Shown here one piece after another: positions 14,578-57,088 of a stretch of 64,000 bases of DNA. How positions within the stretch are numbered: the first letter of the stretch is position 1; every line of letters begins with the position of its first letter. The DNA comes from Emticicia sp. 21SJ11W-3 (GTDB taxonomy: Bacteria > Bacteroidota > Bacteroidia > Cytophagales > Spirosomataceae). The position numbers and the translations under genes are program-made. Location: positions 248,001 to 312,000 of the forward strand of contig NZ_CP092074.1 of the NCBI RefSeq assembly GCF_024138715.1, written 5' to 3'. The notes under the pieces were generated by a model. That model was not told where the DNA came from, did not search any database, and was given only the letters and a program-made list of their open reading frames with translations.

Positions 14578-15780
14578 TTAGACGAGTTTTAAATTTCCTG
14601 ATACACGGCCCAGTATTTTTTTTGCGTCAGAGTGCAACCAGTCATTTAGCAACGATTCATAAATATCTCTGAAATCAACTGAAAATTTCAAATCGCCCTC
14701 ATCCAGATTGGTTAAATCAGGGGCTTCATTCAATATTTCAGGGCGTTTGAGGCTACCGCCTATTAAAAATAAATTATTAGCTGTTCCGTGGTCTGTACCG
14801 GCACTGGCATTTTCTTTTACTCTTCTGCCAAATTCTGAGAAAGTCATAATCACAACATCGTTAATTTTATTGTTTTTTTGCAGGTCATTAACGAATACCT
14901 GTATGGCCGAAGAGTAGTTCTGCAGAAGCCTTTCCTGCTGATTTAGCTGATTAAAGTGGGTGTCGAAACCAGAAACGCTTACATAATATACTCTGGTGGG
15001 CAGGTCTGATATAATAAGTTCTGCAATAGTTTTCAGGCGCTGGCCCAGTTCTCCGACCGGATAAGTGGCCGAAGATTTATAAATTTTTGATTGAGTATGT
15101 AAGAACTCGGCTGAAGACGATGTTTCAGCAAGGGTTTTATACATATATGACAGATTCTGATTGACTGACACCGGCGCAACACCTGCAACCTTTCTGATAA
15201 ACGGACGGCTAACCTGCCGGTATAGTTTTTCTGTATCTTTTACTGCCAATGCCTTTACATTTTCGCCTTTCATTGACAGGCTTAGGGTGTCGTCAATTTC
15301 CAATGCCTGATAAGGTGTACAATGCCCGGCGCAGTTGGCATCCAGGTATCGTCCCAGCCATCCGGTATTCAGGTATTCGGTTGATTCACTGGCGGTATGC
15401 CAAATATCCATAGAGCGGAAATGAGAACGGTCAGGGTTAGGGTAACCAACATTATTAATGATACTCACCAGGCCATCGTCATATAATCGTCTGAGGCCGT
15501 CCATGGCAGGGTTAAGGCCAAGTTCTCCGTTTAGTTTTAGTACTTTGTCAGGCGCAATACCAATATTGGGCCGGGCTTTATAGTAAATATCGTTTGTGTA
15601 TGGAATTACCGTGTTTAGGCCATCATTACCACCTGACAACTGAACAACAACCAAAACCTTGCCGTTCACCGGCTCTACACCCAAGTGTTGTGTTTCGTAG
15701 GCTTTCAGAAAATGAGGAACCAGCATACCGCCTATGGTTGCCAATGCCGATTGCTTGATAAAATCTCTTCTTGATGCCAT
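14578..15780 (-). CDS. Tat-exported DUF1501 protein
   Basis: The 400-residue protein starts with a twin-arginine signal (SRRDFIKQSALATIGGMLVP). The body matches DUF1501: VVVQLSGGNDGLNTVIPY near residue 45, NPDRSHFRSMDIWHTAS near 115, SGFDTHFNQLNQQERLL, and TFSEFGRRVKENASAGTDHG near the end. The fold is alkaline-phosphatase/sulfatase-like in other members, but the substrate is not known. It lies 51 bases after the DUF1800 gene on the same strand. This two-gene unit is very common in Bacteroidota and Planctomycetes and the two proteins are likely to work together outside the cytoplasm. Confidence 0.9.
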   Translation of the reverse strand: MASRRDFIKQSALATIGGMLVPHFLKAYETQHLGVEPVNGKVLVVVQLSGGNDGLNTVIPYTNDIYYKARPNIGIAPDKVLKLNGELGLNPAMDGLRRLYDDGLVSIINNVGYPNPDRSHFRSMDIWHTASESTEYLNTGWLGRYLDANCAGHCTPYQALEIDDTLSLSMKGENVKALAVKDTEKLYRQVSRPFIRKVAGVAPVSVNQNLSYMYKTLAETSSSAEFLHTQSKIYKSSATYPVGELGQRLKTIAELIISDLPTRVYYVSVSGFDTHFNQLNQQERLLQNYSSAIQVFVNDLQKNNKINDVVIMTFSEFGRRVKENASAGTDHGTANNLFLIGGSLKRPEILNEAPDLTNLDEGDLKFSVDFRDIYESLLNDWLHSDAKKILGRVSGNLKLV

Positions 15781-15831
15781 TATTGATAAACCAATTTAAA
15801 TGTATAAATAAAAAAGACTGACAGGTTATGC

Positions 15832-17262
15832 CTAGCATAGCTGGTATTCAGGGAGCATCCATAAATACATGGTTGTTTTTTTCATGGCCTCTACCTGTGG
15901 CCCGGCCTTAACGTGGCTCTCAATTTCTTTCAGTATGCTTTCATCGGGCATTGCCTGCAGCAAATAATTAGTCATTTCTTCCAGCAGGTTAGTTTTTTTG
16001 CCTGCAAAGTATGGCGCTAATTTTAGCCAGTCAGATTCACCGCTGAACCCTCTTTTACGTGTCTGGTACTCCGTATTGATGTCGCCATCGCTTTTAGCGC
16101 TTATTTCGGGTTGCCTGTCTGTAAAAATAAGAGACGGAAGCTGCATTCTGAATAAAAGACTGGAGCTGTCGATCCAGTTTTTGCCTCCCGGCCACCCCGC
16201 TACATTGGGCGGATACAGTAATATCTGGCCTAACAGCCGCTCAATAAGCAATGGTGCCTCCGGGTCATCAAAATGTATTTGCATGGTTGTTTTCATGCCC
16301 ACCAGTAATTCTATGGGTGATTTAATATGCGACCCGATGTTGCGCGCATCGAAGAACCAGTCTGAAGTAAAAATATGTTGAAGCAAAAGCGAAATTTCAT
16401 AGCCCGATTCATAAAACCGCTCAGCAAGTTTTAGTATTTTTTCGGTATGCCAGGGGTTAGCGGTATCTTCATTTACAAGCTGCCTGTAAATTTTTTCTGT
16501 TACAAAAATGGCAGTTTCTTTTTTTTCAAGAATCATAGAGATAACTTCTTCTCCCTTAAAGTTTCCGGTTTTGCCAAAAATGGTTTTATCGCCGTCGTCA
16601 TGTTGTTTTTCTTTAAAAACAAACTGGCCGTTTGTGTCAAAGTCCCATCCTGTAAACGCTCTGGCTACCTGTTTAATGTCTTTTTCGGTGTAGTTGCCTC
16701 TGCCAAGTGTAAACAACTCCATCAATTCTCTGGCAAAGTTTTCATTCGGACTTTTTTTTCGGTTCTGCCTGTTATTTAAAAACTGTAGCATTGATGGTTC
16801 TTTAGAAACCGCAAGCAGCAAATCTCCGAACTTCCCCAAAGCATATTTACGAAGGGTATTTACATAGCTTTGCGAATAATAGGCATCCTGACTTCTGGAT
16901 ACCAGATGTCCATGCCAGTAAAATGCCATTTTTTCTCTCAGAACCTCTTTGCCCGAACTCATCTTTTCAATCCAGGCAATATTAAGTCTGGTTTGGTCTT
17001 CCTTTCTTTGCTTCTCAATTTCAAGCTGCTTCTCTTTTAGGCGTGCCAGGTCTGTTTTGTCAATGGCATTTGCCTTTGACTTAGAATAGGTATCTGTCGT
17101 ATCCGGAGGCTTCACCACTTCGATAGGGCTGAAAGATTCAGAATCTTTCAGCAGCCTCTTGAAAATTCTTTTGGCAGAATGGTGTTTGGCCTCTTTTATG
17201 GTTGAGAGTGGCGCTCCGAATCCCGCTCTCCAGAACAAGTGCTGGGTTTGCTTTTGTAACAC
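15832..17262 (-). CDS. DUF1800 protein, partner of DUF1501
   Basis: The 476-residue protein opens with the DUF1800 signature QHLFWRAGFGAPLS. It continues with REKMAFYWHGHLVSR, NENFARELMELFTLGRGNYT, QVARAFTGWDF and LYPPNVAGWPGGKNWI. A Lys/Glu-rich helix lies around residues 60-95. The only usable start is GTG at 17262: an in-frame stop lies three codons upstream. No classical signal peptide is visible, so it may move with the Tat-exported DUF1501 partner or stay inside. The function of the family is unknown. It is the first gene of the pair and faces away from ileS. Confidence 0.88.
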   Translation of the reverse strand: MLQKQTQHLFWRAGFGAPLSTIKEAKHHSAKRIFKRLLKDSESFSPIEVVKPPDTTDTYSKSKANAIDKTDLARLKEKQLEIEKQRKEDQTRLNIAWIEKMSSGKEVLREKMAFYWHGHLVSRSQDAYYSQSYVNTLRKYALGKFGDLLLAVSKEPSMLQFLNNRQNRKKSPNENFARELMELFTLGRGNYTEKDIKQVARAFTGWDFDTNGQFVFKEKQHDDGDKTIFGKTGNFKGEEVISMILEKKETAIFVTEKIYRQLVNEDTANPWHTEKILKLAERFYESGYEISLLLQHIFTSDWFFDARNIGSHIKSPIELLVGMKTTMQIHFDDPEAPLLIERLLGQILLYPPNVAGWPGGKNWIDSSSLLFRMQLPSLIFTDRQPEISAKSDGDINTEYQTRKRGFSGESDWLKLAPYFAGKKTNLLEEMTNYLLQAMPDESILKEIESHVKAGPQVEAMKKTTMYLWMLPEYQLC

Positions 17263-17429: not shown

Positions 17430-17437
17430 TATCTTTG
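17430..17437 (+). promoter_or_regulatory. -7 box of the ileS promoter
   Basis: TATCTTTG followed by C is a perfect Bacteroidota -7 element, 52 bases before the ATG at 17489. No strong -33 TTG lies at the usual distance. An in-frame TTG at 17435 falls inside this box and therefore cannot be the translation start. Confidence 0.5.
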
Positions 17438-17488: not shown

Positions 17489-20400
17489 ATGCATTATAAA
17501 GAATATAAATCTGTTAACTACGCAGCCATCGCTGACGAAATTCTGGAGTTCTGGAAAAAGAATAAAGTATTTGAGCAATCGGTAGAGGTAAGAGAAGGCG
17601 CACCTGCTTTTACTTTCTATGAGGGGCCTCCGTCTGCTAACGGAACGCCGGGTATCCACCACGTAATGGCTCGTACTATTAAAGATATTTTCTGCCGGTA
17701 CAAAACCCTGAAAGGCTTTCAGGTAAAACGTAAAGGTGGTTGGGATACCCACGGCCTGCCGGTTGAACTGCAAGTGGAAAAAGAACTGGGTATTACCAAA
17801 GAAGACATTGGGATTAAGATATCGGTTGAAGAATATAACCGGAAATGCCGTGAAACGGTGATGCGCTTTACCGACCAATGGAATGACCTGACCGAAAAAA
17901 TGGGTTACTGGGTAGACCTTGACAACCCATACATTACCTATAAAAACGAATACATAGAGTCTATCTGGTATCTGATTAAGGAGTTCTACAAAAAAGGACT
18001 GCTCTATAAAGGGTATACCATTCAGCCATACTCGCCTGCTGCAGGAACGGGGCTTTCGTCTCATGAGTTAAACATGCCCGGCACTTACAAAGAAGTGAAA
18101 GACACTTCTCTTACGGCACAGTTTAAGGTGAAGAAATCAGACAAGTCTGACTTTTTGTTTGAAGCAGCCCAAGGCAATGAGGTGTACATATTGGCCTGGA
18201 CCACCACACCGTGGACACTCCCTGCCAACTCTGCACTTACTGTAGGTAAAAACATTGACTACGTATTGGTAAAAACGTTTAATCCGTACACCTACCTGCC
18301 GGTAAATGTGGTGTTGGCAAAAGTGTTGGTGAGTAAATATTTCTCTGAGAAAGGGCTGGACGGTGATTTTGACGGCTTTGCTGCGTCAGACAAAAAACTG
18401 ATTCCGTGGACAATCCTAACTGAATTTAAAGGCGCTACATTAGAAGGTATTGAGTATCATCAGTTATTGCCCTATGTTCAGCCTGATGCAGCTGCTTTCA
18501 GAGTTATTATAGGTGACTTTGTTACTACTGAAGACGGCACAGGGGTTGTACATACTTCACCAACCTTCGGTGCTGACGACTTCCGTGTTGCACAGCAAAA
18601 TGGTATTCCGCCGATAATGGTGAAAGACGAAAACGGCAAAGAGGTGCCTATTGTTGATAAGCGTGGCCGTTTTGTAAAAGAAATTTCTGACTTTGCCCTG
18701 GAGTATGTTAAAGAGGCATATCTGACAGACGACGAAAAAGAAACAGAACGCCAGAAACAGGGCCGAGACAAATATCTGTCGGTAGATGAGCGCATCGGTA
18801 TCAAACTGAAAACAGAGAATAAGGCTTTCAATGTTCAGAAGTTTGACCACCCTTACCCACACTGCTGGCGTACTGATAAACCGGTGCTATACTACCCGCT
18901 TGATAGCTGGTTTATTCGCACCACAGCCATGAAAGAAAGGCTGGTAGCCTTGAATAAGACCATTAACTGGCAGCCTGAAAGCACCGGAACGGGTCGTTTC
19001 GGCAACTGGCTTGAAAACGCCGTAGACTGGAACCTGTCTCGTAGCCGTTACTGGGGTACTCCGCTACCTATCTGGCGGTGCGAAGATGGTGAAGAGGTTT
19101 GTATTGGCTCATTGGAAGAACTGAAAAACGGTATTCTGCATGCCCTGAAAGATGAGGCACTATCTGCCGAACAAAAGCAGAAAAACGAGTATTTTCTTGC
19201 ATTGCTGGCCGATAACAAAGAAGACCTGCACCGCCCTTATGTAGATGAGGTGTATCTGGTATCTACCAGCGGTAAAGTAATGCAACGTGAAACCGACCTG
19301 ATTGACGTTTGGTTTGACTCTGGCGCTATGCCGTTTGCACAATGGCATTATCCGTTTGAGAACAAGGAGGTTTTTGATAATAATTACCCTGCTGATTTCA
19401 TTTCGGAGGGTGTTGACCAGACACGCGGTTGGTTCTTTACGCTACATGCCATATCTGGTATGTTGTACGACTCTATTGCCTTTAAAAACGTGGTGTCGAC
19501 AGGATTGGTGCTTGACAAAAACGGCAACAAGATGTCTAAACGCCTGGGTAATGCCGTCAATCCGTTTGAGACGCTATCTCAATATGGGGCCGACCCAACC
19601 CGCTGGTATATGATTACCAATGCCGAGCCCTGGGATAACCTGAAGTTTAATATTGACGGTATCACAGAAGTGCAACGTAAGTTTTTTGGTACACTTACCA
19701 ATACTTATAATTTCTTTGCACTGTATGCCAACCTTGATAATTATAAAATGACAGAGGCCGACCGTGTGCCTTATGAGCGTTTGCCTGAAATGGACCGTTG
19801 GATTCTGTCTAAATTATATACGCTTATTAAAGAAGTTGAAGAGCAATATGAAACCTACAACCCTACTAAAGCAGGGCGTTTGATACAGGATTTTGTATGT
19901 GACCAACTCTCTAACTGGTATGTGCGTTTGTGCCGCCGCCGTTTCTGGCAAGGCGAAATGACCGAGAACAAAAAGGCAGCCTATGAAACATTACAGCATT
20001 GTCTGGTTGCAGTTTCGCAGTTGATGTCGCCTATTGCGCCTTTCTATGGAGACTGGTTGTATAGAAACATGACTGATTGTATCCGTGAGGAAGCTAAAGC
20101 CAGCAAAACCCGTTTCTTGCATGAGTCTGTGCACTTTACTGAATGGCATAAATATGACGAAACGTTGGTAGATTCTGATTTGGAAGAGTCGATGGATTTA
20201 GCGCAGAGAATATCATCGCTGGTACACTCATTGCGTAAAATACATAAAATTAAGGTTCGCCAGCCACTGCAAAGAATTTTGATTCCGGTGCTTTCTGAAA
20301 GTACGCGTGAGAAGATTCGTCATGTAGAAGAGATCATCAAGTCGGAAGTAAACATTAAGGCTGTTGAATATCTGGATGACGATTCTGGTATCCTGAAAAA

Positions 20401-20926
20401 GAAAGTGAAGCCAAACTTTAAAGTACTGGGCCCTAAATACGGCAAGGACATGAAAGAGGTGGGCAACTTTATTACTGCCATAACTCCGGAACAACTGAAA
20501 GAACTGGAAAAAACCGGCGAACTGGCCACGCAGTCAGCACTGGCAGCGTTTACACATCTGAAACTGGAAGACGTTGAGATACTGACAGAAGACGTACCGG
20601 GCTGGTTAGTTGCCAGCGAAGGTGGGCTAACAGTTGCGCTGGATATGACCATTTCTGAAGAACTGCGTTATGAAGGTATCGCCCGCGATTTTGTAAACCG
20701 TATTCAGAACTACAGAAAAGATAATGGTTTTGAAGTAACCGATAAAATCAGGATATCGTTAGCCAACAATAATGAAACGCTGGTAGCGGCGGTTCAGGCC
20801 AATAAAGATTATATCTGCCAGGAAGTGCAGGCGCTTTCGCTGGATGTAACTGAGGCAATTGTACAAGCCGCTGAAATTGAAATGGACGAGTTCCTGTTGC
20901 TTGTTAACGTAGAAGTAGCAAAGTAA
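17489..20926 (+). CDS. ileS: Isoleucyl-tRNA synthetase, type 2, with inverted HIGH motif (GIHH)
   Basis: The 1145-residue class I synthetase charges tRNA-Ile. The ATP-site motif after EGPPSANGTP reads Gly55-Ile-His-His58, where most synthetases have His-x-Gly-His. The second motif is KMSKR at 681-685 (NGNKMSKRLGNAVNP). The editing domain (WTTTPWTLPANSALTVG, about 245-260) and the tRNA-binding C-terminus (WYVRLCRRRFW and beyond) are complete. Length and motif text fit type 2 (eukaryote-like) IleRS. The swap to GxHH is reported to make IleRS2 extremely resistant to mupirocin. The ATG at 17489 is chosen because the promoter box covers the alternative TTG. A strong terminator follows. Confidence 0.95.
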   Translation: MHYKEYKSVNYAAIADEILEFWKKNKVFEQSVEVREGAPAFTFYEGPPSANGTPGIHHVMARTIKDIFCRYKTLKGFQVKRKGGWDTHGLPVELQVEKELGITKEDIGIKISVEEYNRKCRETVMRFTDQWNDLTEKMGYWVDLDNPYITYKNEYIESIWYLIKEFYKKGLLYKGYTIQPYSPAAGTGLSSHELNMPGTYKEVKDTSLTAQFKVKKSDKSDFLFEAAQGNEVYILAWTTTPWTLPANSALTVGKNIDYVLVKTFNPYTYLPVNVVLAKVLVSKYFSEKGLDGDFDGFAASDKKLIPWTILTEFKGATLEGIEYHQLLPYVQPDAAAFRVIIGDFVTTEDGTGVVHTSPTFGADDFRVAQQNGIPPIMVKDENGKEVPIVDKRGRFVKEISDFALEYVKEAYLTDDEKETERQKQGRDKYLSVDERIGIKLKTENKAFNVQKFDHPYPHCWRTDKPVLYYPLDSWFIRTTAMKERLVALNKTINWQPESTGTGRFGNWLENAVDWNLSRSRYWGTPLPIWRCEDGEEVCIGSLEELKNGILHALKDEALSAEQKQKNEYFLALLADNKEDLHRPYVDEVYLVSTSGKVMQRETDLIDVWFDSGAMPFAQWHYPFENKEVFDNNYPADFISEGVDQTRGWFFTLHAISGMLYDSIAFKNVVSTGLVLDKNGNKMSKRLGNAVNPFETLSQYGADPTRWYMITNAEPWDNLKFNIDGITEVQRKFFGTLTNTYNFFALYANLDNYKMTEADRVPYERLPEMDRWILSKLYTLIKEVEEQYETYNPTKAGRLIQDFVCDQLSNWYVRLCRRRFWQGEMTENKKAAYETLQHCLVAVSQLMSPIAPFYGDWLYRNMTDCIREEAKASKTRFLHESVHFTEWHKYDETLVDSDLEESMDLAQRISSLVHSLRKIHKIKVRQPLQRILIPVLSESTREKIRHVEEIIKSEVNIKAVEYLDDDSGILKKKVKPNFKVLGPKYGKDMKEVGNFITAITPEQLKELEKTGELATQSALAAFTHLKLEDVEILTEDVPGWLVASEGGLTVALDMTISEELRYEGIARDFVNRIQNYRKDNGFEVTDKIRISLANNNETLVAAVQANKDYICQEVQALSLDVTEAIVQAAEIEMDEFLLLVNVEVAK

Positions 20927-33127: not shown

Positions 33128-36100
33128 TCAGGCTTCTGATTGGCTGTTGTCATCCTGGTCGTCCAGCAGGCTTATATTTGCTTTGGCTTTACCTTTATAT
33201 AAACCGGCATACACGGCCGGAACTACAAAAAGCGTAAACAGCGTGGCAACAATCAGGCCACCTATAACGGCACGTGCCAATGGTGCATTTTGTTCTGAGC
33301 CTTCGCCCAGGCCAATCGCCATCGGAATCATCCCTAACACCATGGCAAGGGCTGTCATCAGAATAGGGCGCATACGTACCTTTCCTGCCTCGGTAATGGC
33401 TTTTAGCACGGTATAACCTTCTGCCCGCAAATCATTGGCATAGCTCACCAATAAGGTTGCGTTAGAAGCGGCAATACCCACCGCCATAATTGAGCCCATC
33501 AGCGATACTACATTGATGGTAGTGCCTGTGGCAAAAAGAAACAGGATGATGCCCATCAATGCACCCGGGATTGATACCAGTACAATAAGCGGGTCTTTCA
33601 ATGACTGAAACAAAACTACCATCAGTACATATACCAGCAATATGGCCAGCACCAGACCCTGAGCCATATTAGTAAATGACTCGTTCATTACCTGGCCTTG
33701 TCCGCGCACGTTAATGCTGAATCCCTTAGGCAACTGCCCCATGTTTTTTATGATGCGCTCAATATCTGCTGACACTGAGCCTAAGTCGCGGTCTTCTACA
33801 TTGGCAGATACATTCAGCACACGCTGGATATTCTCATGGTTTATCTGGCTTGGCATAACGCCGGGGGTAATTTCTGATACATTACGCACCGTCTGGGCTA
33901 TCTGCCTGGGCACGTCTGTTGGCTGCAATGTCGAGTTACTGCTTAAGGCATTGGCCGTAGCGCTGGTGGTGAGCGGCAGATTCATCAGGTCACTTACCGA
34001 CTGAATCTTACTGCTTGGTGTTTTTACCACTACCGTATAGTTTACATTATTGGCCGGGTTCAGAAAATAAGAAGGTGCAAACAAACCACTCGACGACAGG
34101 TTTACCAATAAATTACTGGCCACGTCTCTCTGGCTAAGGCCCACCTGTGCTGCCCTTATGCGGTCAACGTCTACTTTCAGGGTAGGGTAGTCTAGTACCT
34201 GTTTAATGGTAACATCTTTTAAGCCGGCTACTTTTCTCAGTGAATCCCGCAATACTTTGGCCATTTCGTAGCCTTTGTTATAGTCGGTTACTTCTATCTG
34301 CACATCAATCGGCGAACTCAAGCCGAAGTTCAATACCTGCCCCACCATGTCGGCTGTCTGAAAATACGACTGTGTTCCGGGAAACTCGTTATTCAGAACC
34401 TCCCTTATCTTGTTTCTGTATATCTCGGTTGGTTTGTGGTCTTTCTTCAGGGCAATCATAATTTCGGCGTCCATACCGTTTACGTTGTCAGACTGCACAT
34501 AGGCCAGGTTAAAGAAAATCGGCACACCGATATTGGCGCTGATAGTACTTAATTCTTCCGGAGGAACAATCTTCCTTACGGCTTCTTCAATTCTTTCTAC
34601 ATATTTTTCTGTTTCTTCAATACGCGTGCCAAAAGGCGCTCTGAAATGCAGTTTCATAAAGCCCGTATCTGTAGTGGGGAAGAAGTCGGTACCTACCATT
34701 GGGGTTATGAGTACAACCGTTAGCACTACCAGAACAAGCGAGCCTGCCAATAGTAAGCCCTTCTGTTTCAGCATTTTGCCCAGGCGGCTGGCGTAGGTAT
34801 TTTGCAGACGTTCAAACTGGCGGTCTCTCCAGCGGTCAAATCGGCTGCCATGTGCTTCATGCGCCCCTGCCGAAAGCATTAATCTTGAAAGCAGCGGCAC
34901 GAGTGTGCGCGATAGCACGTAAGAGGTAAGCATGGCCACTACTACCGACAAGGCCATTGGCACAAACAGAAACCCTGCCGGGCCAGTAATGAACAAAACC
35001 GGAATAAATACAATACAGATAGATAGCGTAGCAACCAAAGCGGGCGTAGCAATTTCGGCTGCCCCGTCTAGTATGGCCCGAACGAGCGATTTACCCATGC
35101 CTAACTGGCGGTGGATACTCTCAATGGCCACGGTGGCGTCGTCAACCAGCATACCTACGGCTAATGACAAGCCGCCGAGCGTCATGATGTTCAGCGAGTT
35201 ACCCGTCAGGTCTAAAACAATAATGGCTGTCAGGATTGCCAACGGGATAGACGTGATAACAATGAATACGTTACGCCAGTTACCCAGAAATCCGAATATC
35301 ATCAAACCAACCAGAAATATGGCCAGAATCATCTCGTGCAATACGTTATCTATGGCAGCACTTACAAATATACTCTGGTCGAAATCGGTCGTTATTTCCA
35401 GACCTTCAGGCGCCACTTCTTTTATTTTAGGAATCATGTTTTTTGATGATTCCACAATGGTAAGAGTAGAAGCGCTTGATTTACGCAATATGGTAAGATA
35501 GCTGGCGTGCTTGCCGTTAATGCGTACAATATTGGTTGGGTCGGCAAATGAGTCGGATATCTTACCGATGTCTTCAATTTTAATGGTCTGGCCGTTAATT
35601 ACCTTTACCGGAATATCATAAAACTGGTCAACCGTACTCGGGCTGGCGTTCAGTGCTATGTTATATTCGGTTTCGCCCATACGGGCTGTTCCTGCCGGCA
35701 GAATAACGTTTGAGTTCTGCAGGGCAGAAATAACATCGGCGGCCGACAACCCTTTGGCTGTTAGCTGGGCAGGGTCTATGTCAATATTAATCTGGCGTTG
35801 CTTCCCCCCATAAACACCAGGGGTCTGCAAGCCCGGAATAGTAAATAAACGCAAACGCAGAAAGTTATTGGTGTAGTCGGCCACGGCATCTTCTCCCATG
35901 GTGTTACTTGAAATAATCATGTGTAACACGGGTAGGTTAGAGGCATTATAAGGCAGTAAAACAGGTGGCTGCATACCCGGAGGCATCTGCCGGAGGGCTG
36001 TGGATGATACTGCCGAGATTTGTGCCAGCGCCTGGCCCAGGTCTGTGCCGGGTTGAAAATACACCCGTAACAAGCCAATACCCGGAATAGAGCTTGACTC

Positions 36101-36343
36101 AATACGCGACACCCCCTGTACCTGAGAGGAAATACCCCTTTCGTTATTAATAACAACCCGGCGCTCCATATCCTGAGCTGAAAGACCCGGATATGCCCAA
36201 ACGATGTTAACAACAGGTATATCAATTTTCGGGAAAATATCCGTTTGCATCGAACGGATTGCCATAATGCCCCCGAGCATCATCAAAAATGCCATGACAG
36301 CAATGGTATAGGGGCGATTAAGGGCTAATCGAACAATCCACAT
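33128..36343 (-). CDS. RND efflux transporter permease
   Basis: The 1071-residue inner-membrane pump has the 12-helix layout with two large periplasmic loops. The proton-relay pair Asp401-Asp402 is present in VGMLVDDATVAIES. The fourth relay position in helix 10, Lys940 in AcrB, appears to be Ser960 here (VGIAASNATLLV). SKDPLIVLVSIPGALMGI-type text and PVLLPYNASNLPVL are common in Bacteroidota multidrug RND pumps. The substrate is unknown. It follows the aldo/keto reductase gene by 43 bases and precedes the adaptor gene by 48. Confidence 0.93.
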   Translation of the reverse strand: MWIVRLALNRPYTIAVMAFLMMLGGIMAIRSMQTDIFPKIDIPVVNIVWAYPGLSAQDMERRVVINNERGISSQVQGVSRIESSSIPGIGLLRVYFQPGTDLGQALAQISAVSSTALRQMPPGMQPPVLLPYNASNLPVLHMIISSNTMGEDAVADYTNNFLRLRLFTIPGLQTPGVYGGKQRQINIDIDPAQLTAKGLSAADVISALQNSNVILPAGTARMGETEYNIALNASPSTVDQFYDIPVKVINGQTIKIEDIGKISDSFADPTNIVRINGKHASYLTILRKSSASTLTIVESSKNMIPKIKEVAPEGLEITTDFDQSIFVSAAIDNVLHEMILAIFLVGLMIFGFLGNWRNVFIVITSIPLAILTAIIVLDLTGNSLNIMTLGGLSLAVGMLVDDATVAIESIHRQLGMGKSLVRAILDGAAEIATPALVATLSICIVFIPVLFITGPAGFLFVPMALSVVVAMLTSYVLSRTLVPLLSRLMLSAGAHEAHGSRFDRWRDRQFERLQNTYASRLGKMLKQKGLLLAGSLVLVVLTVVLITPMVGTDFFPTTDTGFMKLHFRAPFGTRIEETEKYVERIEEAVRKIVPPEELSTISANIGVPIFFNLAYVQSDNVNGMDAEIMIALKKDHKPTEIYRNKIREVLNNEFPGTQSYFQTADMVGQVLNFGLSSPIDVQIEVTDYNKGYEMAKVLRDSLRKVAGLKDVTIKQVLDYPTLKVDVDRIRAAQVGLSQRDVASNLLVNLSSSGLFAPSYFLNPANNVNYTVVVKTPSSKIQSVSDLMNLPLTTSATANALSSNSTLQPTDVPRQIAQTVRNVSEITPGVMPSQINHENIQRVLNVSANVEDRDLGSVSADIERIIKNMGQLPKGFSINVRGQGQVMNESFTNMAQGLVLAILLVYVLMVVLFQSLKDPLIVLVSIPGALMGIILFLFATGTTINVVSLMGSIMAVGIAASNATLLVSYANDLRAEGYTVLKAITEAGKVRMRPILMTALAMVLGMIPMAIGLGEGSEQNAPLARAVIGGLIVATLFTLFVVPAVYAGLYKGKAKANISLLDDQDDNSQSEA

Positions 36344-52324: not shown

Positions 52325-55300
52325 ATGCGGCACCTAACTATTATCTTCTGTTGTGGTATTCTTTTGTCGGTTGGGGCAAAGGCACAATCAATCAGGTTGT
52401 CAGAAAACCCACAGACCTTTATCAGTGAGATTAAGACGGTAATGGGCGCAGAAAAAAATGCCATAGCCATTGCCATGGGCGATAAGTTTGAGGTTTACTG
52501 GACAACCCGCTTTACCGACAGCCAGAAAACGGTATTGATGAACACAACCAGGCGGATGGGGCTGAAAGGGCATAAAATGGCACAGTTTTATTACCTCTTT
52601 CTGCTGATTGATAAACTGATAACACAAGAAAACTATAACAATACACGCCTTGATAATTTTCTGGGGGTGGCGCAAAAGACGGTTGAGCAATATGACCTAA
52701 AAACAGCTACCCGTGTTTTTGAAACCTTCAAGGATTTTCTGGAGAAGCGGAGAATCTATGCCTCGGGCTTTAACCGGTTATATGTACTTGGGGGTACATT
52801 CGATTTCACTTTCTCTGGTAAAATGCCAGAAGCAGCAAAAGCTGCCCCACCTGCCACTACGGCAGCTCCTGCCCCTGAAGAAGAATCAAAATTATTTGAT
52901 GGCTGGGACGCCCCCGTACCCGTAACACCGCCGCTTTCTGCTGGCAATGGGTTACAGGAGTTGACTAAGAAACCCATGCCGGTGTTGTCTGGTGTGGCTG
53001 TTGAGTTCAGCAATGCCGACCTGGTTATGGCCACCGCCAGCGACTCAGTGGCTATTAGCCAAACTTCAGGCACCATAGCGTTGAAAGACGGCGTTTTTGT
53101 AGGTAAGGGCGGCACAATCACCTGGGCTAATCTCGGACTACCTCAGATTTCAGCAACCCTGGCCGACTATACCTTTGAAGTCAGAAACCCGCGTTTTACA
53201 GCAGAAGATGTTGCTTTTACCTATCCCGACCGCCTGACAGCCCCGGTAAAAGGAGTGCTGGAGTTTAAAGGCGAAAAGCGCGCCAAAAATGTACCGGCAT
53301 CGTATCCGCGTTTTATGTCTTACCAGAGCGACGCCTTCATCAAGAATATCGATAAAAGTATTGAGTACAAAGGTGGGTTTTCTATTATCGGCAAAAGAAT
53401 CTTTTCTTCATCTGCCAGCAATAGTTATGCATACATTACAGTAAAACAAGACGGCAAAACTGTTTTTAAAACCAGTAGTACGCGCTTCGAAATTAATGAT
53501 GCTTTCATCAATGCGCAGTTGGCCAGCTTTGTAACCTACATCGGCCAGGACTCCATCTATCATCCGGCCGTAAAACTCAATTACATACCTGCCGACGGCC
53601 TGCTGAAATTGAATAAAATAGAAGCCGGCAGCTACAGAGATGCCCTGTTTATAGATTCGTATCATCAGTTGGGTATCAAATGCGATGCCATGCGGTGGAA
53701 TCTGGCAGAAGGCAAAATGGATTTCTATATTGTATCCGGCAAAACGCAGGTACCGGCCTTGTTTGAATCGCTCGATTTCTTTGACGCCCAAAGGTTAGGC
53801 AGGCTCAGCGGTGGTGGCAGTTTTAATCCGTTGCTGGTGGCCTCTAATTTTGTGCAGAAAAACAACAAATCTTCTTTCAGTGTGCATGAGGTAGGCGCAT
53901 TTAATAATAACCGGGTATCGGCCCAGAACCTGAAATCAGGCTTTATGCTGGCCGAGCAGCAGGGGTTTTTATACTATAACCCCATAACAGACCTCTACAG
54001 CATTACCAGAAAAGGGCAGCATTATCTGGCTGCCAACACTGGTAAAAAAGATTTTGACGACCTGCTCATACCTTCTATTTATGGCAGCAGTAAAGACTCT
54101 ACCGCTAATGCTTCCTTAAACCTGACAGACAAATCACTGTTGATAAGGGGTGTGAAGCGTTTTAACCTGAGCGATTCGCTGGAAGCGTATGTATTGCCTT
54201 ATGATGGTATCGTAAAAGTAGGTAAAAACAGAACCTTTGCCTTTAATGGTCAGTTAAAGGCAAAGAACTTTCGTTTTTCTGGTAAAGAACTGGTACTCGA
54301 TTACGAGAAGTACTCGCTCTCTTTGCCGAGGATAGATTCAATTACCTTTACACCCCCTGATGCCTATGCCAAAGGCGCTACCAAAGAGATAGGCAGTAAA
54401 TTTAAATATGATAACGCAGGCGTGGTGTATCTGAACAAACCTGATAACAAGTCGGGCCGGATGCATTTGCCGCAGTATCCAATACTGAAAATAGATAAGG
54501 GAGTAATTGTTTATTTTGATGATGCCTACAGAGGCAACCGGGCATTTAACCGTGAAGTGCGATTTGAGGTGCCGAAAATAGACTTTGACAGCCTGAACGT
54601 AAAACCTTTGGAGTTTAGTGGTACCTTCTATTCGGGTAATATATTTAAACCGTTTAAAGAAAAGCTAAAAATTCTGACAGATACCACCATCGGCTTTTCG
54701 CATAAAGTGCCCGGCGGTAAGTACCCTGTATATGGCAGCGAAACCTCTGTTAAGTTTGCCTCTGAGCTGGTGATGGACGACAAAGGCCTGCATACTAAAG
54801 GAGACATTAATCATCTGGCTGCCACTTTAACATCTGACGAAATCTTCTTTTTTACCGACTCATTAACAGCCAAAGGCAAGGTGGGTAAAGTGCTGGAAAC
54901 CGCCAGGCCCGGTGGGGCTTATTACCCTAAGGTAGATGTAAAAGACTACACCCTGAAATGGATACCCAAAGCAGATTCAATGCTGATTGCCTCTACTGAA
55001 GGGTTTGATTTTTATCAGGCATCTTCATCTTTAAAAGGAAAAATACTATTAAGAAAAACCGGATTATTTGGTGCAGGCAACCTGGTTCGAAATGATTCAG
55101 AGACCGGCTCTGAACAATTCAAGTTTAATAAAGAAGGCTTTTTTGCCGATAACTCGCAGTTTAAAATCAAGGCCAGTTCTCCCTCAACCAAAGCGGTTTT
55201 GTTGGCAAAAAACGTAGATATTAATTTCAATATTACCAAAAGCCTGGTAAACATTGTGGGTAATGAAGGCAATAGCTTTAATGATACCACAAGGCAGACA

Positions 55301-57088
55301 TCGCTGGAGTTCCCTTATGCAGCCTATAAAACCAACATAGACAAAGCAGAGTGGAACATTAAGAAAAAACAGATAAGCATGAAAGGCGATTTAGCCTCTA
55401 CGCTGTTTGCATCAACTAATTCTGCCCAGGAAGGGCTGGCTTTCAAAGGGAGTTCGGCAGTATACGATATTGAGCAACTAACCTTGAATATCGGCGGAGT
55501 GCCATACATTCAATCGGCAGATGCCAGAATCATGCCTAACAAAGGGCAGGTGGCTATCAGAAAAGATGCCGAAATGCTACCTTTCAAAAATGCCCGACTG
55601 ACAATTGACACCCTGAACGGCTTTCATAACCTGAGCAACGGTAACATACAGATTCTTTCCAAAAGCAGATTTACCGGAGATGCCTCCTATCAGTTTGTGA
55701 ATGCCAGAAAAGATACTTTCAATATAAAAATGGGTGACTTTGAGTTAAGGGAGGTAAAGCTCCCGGCAGGGCCTGACGGCAGGAAAACAAAAGAGAAGGG
55801 GTATTCTACCTATGCTCATGCCACCGTCAGAGACCGCGATAGCGTGTATCTGTCACCAAAAATCATCTATCAGGGAGAAATTTCTATGTGGGCGCCTGTT
55901 AAAACCCTGGCTATGGATGGTTTCGTATTGCCGGTACTTAAAAAATATCCTAAACTGGGTGGTTACTGGATACCATACAAAGGAGAAAAGTCTGAAGAAG
56001 TGGTTATTACAGTTGATAAAAACCTGAAAAGTGATGAAGAACCGCTGTTTGCCGGTTTGCATTTCAGAACTACAACTTCTACTAATGGATTGTATCCTAC
56101 GTTTTTGTCTGCCAAAGAAACCGAAGAAGACCAGGATGTTTTTGTGGTAAACGGTGTCTTGCGCCGAGACGAAACAAACAGGCTGTTCAGTATAAAACCT
56201 GATGACCCCAAAGCCACAGCTGTTAATAAATACGAGCTGATTGAAGACAAGGGTATTATTAATCTTGAAGGCAAATACAACCTGTTGGGTAAAGAACTGG
56301 CACAGTATATGCAAACAACAGGTTTTGCTACTTTAAGACTCGATTCGTCAAGGCATCAGTTTAATACCATGATGCTGGTAAACTTCCCGGTGGCACAGCC
56401 TATACTGGCTAATATGGCTACTAAAATTGTAAAAACTAACCTTGACCTGGGTGTAAACGAAGCCGCCATTGAGCTTAATTCGCCTGAGTTGATTTCAAAA
56501 ATCTCGTATATCGTAGGCGAAAAAGACATTGAAGACTACAAGCTGCGGTCTGCTAAAGAATATGTGCCGTTATTCAGGTTTTCGCCCCGCTTTATCAATA
56601 CCATTGTATTCAGCGACCTGCAGTTGGTCTGGGAGCCTAAGCAGAACGCCTACAGAAGTGTAGGCAAGCTGGGGGTATCAAACATTGGCGAGACAGATAT
56701 CAATGCCAAAATAAATGGTTATGTAGAGATACGGAAAAACCCAGTTACCGGCGACGAGGTCTATGTTTTTCTGGAGCTATCGCCAGAAAGCTGGTATTAT
56801 ATGGGGTATAAAGAAAATGAAATGGGTATTATATCTTCTGATGATGCCTTCAATGCGCTGGTAACTAAAGGAGAGCGAAGAAAAGACCGTGGGTATCAGG
56901 TTATAGCCGTCGACCACTCAGAGGCCATTCTTTTCAGAAAGATGTTCCTGGAAACCTACCGCGGCCTGAAAGAACCACCTAAAGGAACCAAAGTTGACCC
57001 CAAGAAGCTGGCAGACGCCCCCAAAGAGGCAACGCAGAAAAAGGAAGAAAAGAAAAAGAAAGAAGAAGCAGAAAAAGAGGGTTTTTAA
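52325..57088 (+). CDS. Large exported protein of unknown function (1587 residues)
   Basis: I do not recognise this gene. A signal peptide is clear (LTIIFCCGILLSVGAKAQS). Residues about 22-165 look helical. A Pro/Ala linker follows (about 170-205, APPATTAAPAPEEES). Over 1250 residues of beta-rich sequence come next, with alternating strands and many aromatic and acidic turns. There are few Cys. The C-terminal 20 residues are Lys/Glu-rich low complexity (KKEEKKKKEEAEKEGF). No catalytic motif is seen. The long beta region might form a solenoid or a periplasmic bridge, like AsmA/TamB or LPS-transport proteins, but no motif supports a family. It follows prmA by 35 bases and probably shares its transcript. 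Confidence 0.9.
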   Translation: MRHLTIIFCCGILLSVGAKAQSIRLSENPQTFISEIKTVMGAEKNAIAIAMGDKFEVYWTTRFTDSQKTVLMNTTRRMGLKGHKMAQFYYLFLLIDKLITQENYNNTRLDNFLGVAQKTVEQYDLKTATRVFETFKDFLEKRRIYASGFNRLYVLGGTFDFTFSGKMPEAAKAAPPATTAAPAPEEESKLFDGWDAPVPVTPPLSAGNGLQELTKKPMPVLSGVAVEFSNADLVMATASDSVAISQTSGTIALKDGVFVGKGGTITWANLGLPQISATLADYTFEVRNPRFTAEDVAFTYPDRLTAPVKGVLEFKGEKRAKNVPASYPRFMSYQSDAFIKNIDKSIEYKGGFSIIGKRIFSSSASNSYAYITVKQDGKTVFKTSSTRFEINDAFINAQLASFVTYIGQDSIYHPAVKLNYIPADGLLKLNKIEAGSYRDALFIDSYHQLGIKCDAMRWNLAEGKMDFYIVSGKTQVPALFESLDFFDAQRLGRLSGGGSFNPLLVASNFVQKNNKSSFSVHEVGAFNNNRVSAQNLKSGFMLAEQQGFLYYNPITDLYSITRKGQHYLAANTGKKDFDDLLIPSIYGSSKDSTANASLNLTDKSLLIRGVKRFNLSDSLEAYVLPYDGIVKVGKNRTFAFNGQLKAKNFRFSGKELVLDYEKYSLSLPRIDSITFTPPDAYAKGATKEIGSKFKYDNAGVVYLNKPDNKSGRMHLPQYPILKIDKGVIVYFDDAYRGNRAFNREVRFEVPKIDFDSLNVKPLEFSGTFYSGNIFKPFKEKLKILTDTTIGFSHKVPGGKYPVYGSETSVKFASELVMDDKGLHTKGDINHLAATLTSDEIFFFTDSLTAKGKVGKVLETARPGGAYYPKVDVKDYTLKWIPKADSMLIASTEGFDFYQASSSLKGKILLRKTGLFGAGNLVRNDSETGSEQFKFNKEGFFADNSQFKIKASSPSTKAVLLAKNVDINFNITKSLVNIVGNEGNSFNDTTRQTSLEFPYAAYKTNIDKAEWNIKKKQISMKGDLASTLFASTNSAQEGLAFKGSSAVYDIEQLTLNIGGVPYIQSADARIMPNKGQVAIRKDAEMLPFKNARLTIDTLNGFHNLSNGNIQILSKSRFTGDASYQFVNARKDTFNIKMGDFELREVKLPAGPDGRKTKEKGYSTYAHATVRDRDSVYLSPKIIYQGEISMWAPVKTLAMDGFVLPVLKKYPKLGGYWIPYKGEKSEEVVITVDKNLKSDEEPLFAGLHFRTTTSTNGLYPTFLSAKETEEDQDVFVVNGVLRRDETNRLFSIKPDDPKATAVNKYELIEDKGIINLEGKYNLLGKELAQYMQTTGFATLRLDSSRHQFNTMMLVNFPVAQPILANMATKIVKTNLDLGVNEAAIELNSPELISKISYIVGEKDIEDYKLRSAKEYVPLFRFSPRFINTIVFSDLQLVWEPKQNAYRSVGKLGVSNIGETDINAKINGYVEIRKNPVTGDEVYVFLELSPESWYYMGYKENEMGIISSDDAFNALVTKGERRKDRGYQVIAVDHSEAILFRKMFLETYRGLKEPPKGTKVDPKKLADAPKEATQKKEEKKKKEEAEKEGF

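Follow-up and report, generated by a model that had tools for sequence, protein, structure and literature searches.

The ileS gene in the stretch of the Emticicia sp. 21SJ11W-3 chromosome that we analysed (64,000 nucleotides, referred to here as the window) most probably encodes the normal housekeeping isoleucyl-tRNA synthetase (IleRS) of this organism, a type 2 enzyme of the G/AXHH subgroup, and is the only ileS detected in it. In our reading, to which we give a probability of about 0.92, the third residue of a swapped class I signature, His57, would be catalytic, mupirocin would bind very weakly, and the motif is apparently fixed in the phylum. The observation itself is real, its kind was already described in 2023, and the window gene is an ordinary Bacteroidota orthologue.

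The window encodes an IleRS with a swapped signature motif

The ileS gene (17489-20926, + strand) is an open reading frame with an ATG start and encodes 1145 amino acids; an alternative in-frame TTG start at 17435 would make the protein 18 amino acids longer. In profile searches the protein scored 982.7 bits against the ileS equivalog TIGR00392 (cut-off 621.4) and is thus a member of that family, and it scored 359.4 bits against valS TIGR00422, below the cut-off of 612.1. Domain searches detected PF00133, an anticodon-binding domain (PF08264, residues 769-929, 19793-20275) and a C-terminal DUF5915 domain (PF19302, residues 947-1143, 20327-20917). The CP1 editing domain region lies at approximately residues 200-400 (18086-18688), where the protein matched two solved IleRS fragments, 1wk8 (query residues 200-400) and 1wny (232-400), which we take to be editing domains. 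The second class I signature, KMSKR, is at residues 681-685 (19529-19543) and aligned with KMSKS of Priestia megaterium IleRS2 (PmIleRS2), consistent with the earlier description of this motif as intact.

The first class I signature, HxGH, is replaced by Gly-Ile-His-His (GIHH) at residues 55-58 (17651-17662, + strand; ggtatccaccac), exactly the positions and residue numbers given in the original prediction. A motif scan of the whole protein found a single [GA]xHH, at residue 55, and no HxGH. The active site therefore cannot hold another signature motif, the presence of which would have counted against the prediction. Among the matches listed, the named relatives closest to the protein were from two Cytophagaceae metagenome-assembled genomes (MAGs), from Emticicia sp. 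HJF.15 and from Emticicia aquatilis (82-84% identity), in a list from which the records nearest to the window's own genome may be absent. The match in a genome classed in the host's genus (G004) has coordinates identical to those of the match in the Emticicia sp. HJF.15 contig L047.

Neighbouring genes with DUF1501 and DUF1800 domains on the - strand (14578-17262) are adjacent to ileS. Elsewhere in the window, an open reading frame of 1587 amino acids (52325-57088, + strand) had no Pfam or NCBIfam match at an E value of 0.001, and no RNA element known to Rfam matched within the window at the gathering threshold.

We compared the motif with structures of known register. The best PDB sequence matches found with phmmer were all PmIleRS2 (8c8w, 8c8u, 8c8v and 8c9d); 8C8W is the mutant mut-GVHH-PmIleRS2, and 8C8U and 8C8V are the wild type, wt-HVGH-PmIleRS2 (PMC10485003). 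The alignment at the motif was free of gaps; PGIHH of the window protein faced PGVHH in 8c8w and PHVGH in both wild-type entries (8c8u and 8c8v). Glycine is thus in register at position 1 and histidine at positions 3 and 4, the G/AXHH pattern, and the proposed exchange of the first and third residues is confirmed. A count along the phmmer alignment matches His57, third in the motif, with residue 56 of PmIleRS2, the site of the G56H exchange (PMC10485003). The position of PmIleRS2 His582 is occupied by Leu673 (19505-19507).

The enzyme is type 2 and is encoded by the only ileS found

The window IleRS has DUF5915 at residues 947-1143 and lacks PF06827, the zinc finger of IleRS1 (zf-FPG_IleRS), which identifies it as type 2. 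The same domain search of E. coli K-12 IleRS1 gave the reverse result, with PF06827 present and DUF5915 not found, and a HIGH-type IleRS2 of Caldicoprobacter had DUF5915 and no zinc finger. Type 2 IleRS has been described as lacking the zinc-binding motif (PMC10485003). In a FastTree phylogeny the window IleRS grouped with type 2 and apart from type 1. Domains and tree thus agree with the type originally assigned.

The host genome is a single contig of 5,177,490 bases and is 99.94% complete. Within this sequenced contig there was one match over the ileS cut-off, and the runner-up (G000:C1:1671858-1674116) was a valine--tRNA ligase (NF004349, 1123.8 bits, cut-off 704). A second or type 1 ileS was therefore rejected for the 5.18-Mb assembly; the claims of a single chromosomal copy and of no type 1 IleRS, the latter made for the window, hold for the whole assembly. 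An acquired MupA or MupB was rejected as well, with scores of 735.5 bits (NF000257) and 751.8 bits (NF000258) against cut-offs of 1900.

GxHH looks fixed across the phylum

We determined the motif in two genome samples, which overlap in three genomes (G000, the host, G046 and G053). The sample of relatives had 58 genomes, host included, of which 55 gave a readable motif; the match began at residue 496 in one of the others (G023) and at residue 146 in another (G045), and the third (G035) is 66% complete and gave no IleRS-level match. All 55 readable relatives had GxHH (54 GIHH and 1 GVHH). The phylum sample had 118 genomes, host included, each at least 90% complete. Exactly one match at E ≤ 1e-100 was found in every one of them, over the ileS cut-off, and all 118 had GxHH (86 GIHH, 32 GVHH) and none HxGH. 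The motif is therefore not remarkable for the host genome, and on these sequences GxHH looks fixed phylum-wide. Two other features varied on this GxHH background: KMSKR replaced KMSKS in 28 of the 118 genomes, and the residue at the PmIleRS2 His582 position was Leu in 89 and His in 29. One IleRS match of the phylum sample (L248, in G123:C5) has an in-frame TAG.

We also read the best 80 loci among the contig matches listed. There were 77 with GxHH, one with HIGH (L120, the Caldicoprobacter enzyme) and two that were unreadable, L113 (an apparent frame shift) and L116 (no N-terminus). Their titles include Gammaproteobacteria (Salinisphaera, Oceanococcus, Abyssibacter), Clostridia and a Cloacimonadota MAG. 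Because these loci were picked by likeness to the window protein, they carry little information on frequency.

As an outside group we used the class to which the genome of Caldicoprobacter (G173) belongs, with 59 genomes, 58 of them readable (G233 lacks the N-terminus). The two types were told apart by the residue that follows GPP (Y/F or T/S), in agreement with the tree. The 19 type 1-like enzymes had HxGH (13) or HxGT (6) and never GxHH, whereas the 39 type 2-like enzymes had HxGH (26) or GxHH (13). The counts for GxHH, 0/19 against 13/39, fit what the published type-2-only mechanism requires. At the His582 position, 24 of the 26 type 2 enzymes with HxGH were readable (15 His, 8 Leu, 1 Ile), as were 11 of the 13 with GxHH (all Leu); reads of the KMSK neighbourhood of L294, L295 and L329 were left out as wrong matches. 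The link between this residue and the swap looks loose and lineage-like. The six HxGT enzymes, in which the fourth signature His is Thr, are L278, L279, L282, L283, L289 and L322. The IleRS match of L329 (G180:C2:22178-23995) lies in an open frame of 24,661 amino acids, perhaps from a run of N.

Position of the GxHH enzymes on the tree

The tree was built with FastTree from 123 rows and 809 columns with the signature masked. Taking every third of the 115 further phylum loci gave 39 rows; to these were added the window IleRS, 10 relatives, 14 other loci from the best 80, E. coli, and the outside class, whose 59 loci supplied 58 rows (all but L330). FastTree is prone to joining long branches, and the composition of ten rows was marked as odd. 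One starred branch separates 20 type 1 rows from 103 type 2 rows. The window row stands beside a locus of the same genus (L016), within a block of 59 rows that all have GxHH and that contains all 50 phylum rows and 9 others (7 gammaproteobacterial, 1 Calditrichaeota and 1 Thermoanaerobaculia). Another 18 GxHH rows, 13 from the outside class and 5 others, sit outside this block, and GxHH overall is therefore not one side of a branch.

The seven loci titled Gammaproteobacteria (L105, L107, L112, L114, L117, L119 and L122) encode GxHH IleRS2 enzymes. Their location inside the Bacteroidota-side block suggests horizontal transfer of the gene, although some MAG titles may be wrong.

Published mechanism and its application to the window enzyme

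In G/AXHH IleRS2 enzymes the third-position His replaces the first His in catalysis, which is possible in type 2 because the HIGH helix is shifted there; the third His clashes with mupirocin in a model, IleRS1 with the swap is inactive, and the swap occurs in type 2 only (PMC10485003). The natural ALHH enzyme of Deinococcus radiodurans (DrIleRS2) has a mupirocin Ki of 6.6 mM, which drops 823-fold when the motif is HVGH, and its catalytic efficiency equals that of canonical enzymes (PMC10485003). Swapping the motif in two canonical type 2 enzymes raised the Ki about 200- to 430-fold, and GVHH mutants had Ki values of 35 μM (TtIleRS2) and 460 μM (PmIleRS2) (PMC10485003). The swapped canonical enzymes were up to 10-fold worse in kcat and KM (PMC10485003), and the swap is therefore not free in every background. 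Because the published Ki values of G/AxHH enzymes span 35 μM to 6.6 mM, the motif alone does not set the degree of resistance.

If the window enzyme works as these enzymes do (PMC10485003), His57 would take on the catalytic role that the first His normally has in forming isoleucyl-adenylate. It would also occupy space needed by mupirocin, by steric clash, and the drug would therefore bind very weakly. This weak binding would add to the generally lower mupirocin affinity of type 2 enzymes, and the Ki of the window enzyme would be strongly raised. We infer that the enzyme should be active and mupirocin hyper-resistant; its standing as the only ileS product found in the genome is an indirect sign of competence in Ile activation. 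The original prediction had tied GxHH type 2 enzymes to hyper-resistance through blocked drug binding, a connection that is in print (PMC10485003), and its proposal of native hyper-resistance for the window enzyme is supported by analogy with the enzymes studied there. Given the apparent fixation of GxHH in the phylum, target resistance would be an old, native property and not an acquired one.

Alternative explanations

The swap could be a sequencing error, or the gene could be decayed or misannotated. We consider this practically negligible: the open frame is full-length and scores far over the ileS cut-off, the gene is the sole ileS of a nearly complete genome, and the uniform GxHH of the readable relatives refutes this reading, for which we found no support. 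A different question is how much the motif matters to the organism. The enzyme could resist in vitro while whole-cell resistance comes mainly from the outer membrane or efflux, a reading that we regard as doubtful. The window also encodes, at 33128-36343, an AcrB-type RND pump of 1071 amino acids (PF00873) that might offer another route to drug tolerance and for which we know of no substrate. Activation of efflux leads to mupirocin resistance in Pseudomonas (PMC13188873). On the other side, a target predicted to be insensitive would protect at any level of uptake. In keeping with our main reading, Maribacter halichondriae Hal144T, of the Flavobacteriaceae, is reported to be resistant to mupirocin (200 units; PMC10942906), which efflux or the Gram-negative envelope could equally explain. 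For Ornithobacterium hominis, a genome paper puts isoleucyl-tRNA synthetase under mupirocin (PMC10835994), and a passage of the genome paper on Flavobacterium spartansii speaks of predicted genes for mupirocin resistance but leaves them unnamed (PMC5714932). Target and uptake effects are not separable in these three reports. A literature text search found no paper joining Emticicia and mupirocin; the ileS of bifidobacteria is treated in PMC10469157.

The remaining alternative concerns the origin of the swap and not its function. It holds that the swap is an old variant whose early fixation in the phylum had causes other than mupirocin, with resistance as a by-product, and we think it plausible, if somewhat short of an even chance. 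The presence of GxHH in every sampled phylum genome is in its favour, as is the unreduced catalytic efficiency of the natural non-canonical DrIleRS2 (PMC10485003). In addition, two motif changes suffice on the 123-row tree, and the motif is therefore stable over deep branches. However, the tree is compatible with either gain or loss, and the published study favours selection by naturally occurring mupirocin (PMC10485003). With respect to the phylum, we lean slightly towards the view that GxHH is the ancestral, fixed IleRS form of the whole Bacteroidota in the broad sense and makes a natively mupirocin-insensitive target, that the gene later entered some Gammaproteobacteria, and that the motif is a phylum trait and not a local drug-driven adaptation.

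Implications and comparison with known systems

A published natural alteration of a drug target is now seen in the host organism, and our sample points to its general occurrence in the phylum. The window finding leaves the understood mechanism unchanged; the modest addition over the 2023 work is the apparent phylum-wide fixation of GxHH. No announcement of such fixation in Bacteroidota was found among the literature titles and openings of abstracts listed, and a search of the main text, the part covered, of PMC10485003 and of PMC4861432 gave no word beginning with "Bacteroid"; the tree of 379 IleRS sequences in PMC10485003 may show it. If true, phylum-wide GxHH would help explain the mupirocin insensitivity of these bacteria. 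Resistome surveys would also have reason not to score the ileS of these bacteria as acquired resistance, and mupirocin would be conceivable as a selective agent.

The mupirocin-resistant isoleucine--tRNA ligases MupA and MupB are distant relatives of the window IleRS. They differ from it in that the window gene is chromosomal, is the sole ileS found and scores far under their cut-offs. PmIleRS2 is closer: the swap in its engineered GVHH mutant is that of the window GIHH. Wild-type PmIleRS2, in contrast, has HVGH, and an IleRS1 occurs alongside it. The crystallised PmIleRS2 chain has 1032 residues, compared to 1145 in the window IleRS, and it has KMSKS and His582 where the window enzyme has KMSKR and Leu673; because of these two differences, the kinetics of the window enzyme may differ from those of the enzymes studied. 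Compared to the natural G/AXHH type 2 enzymes of Deinococcus radiodurans (ALHH) and Streptomyces griseus (Brkic et al. 2023, PMC10485003), the window enzyme differs in having GIHH and KMSKR and has the same exchange of the first and third signature residues.
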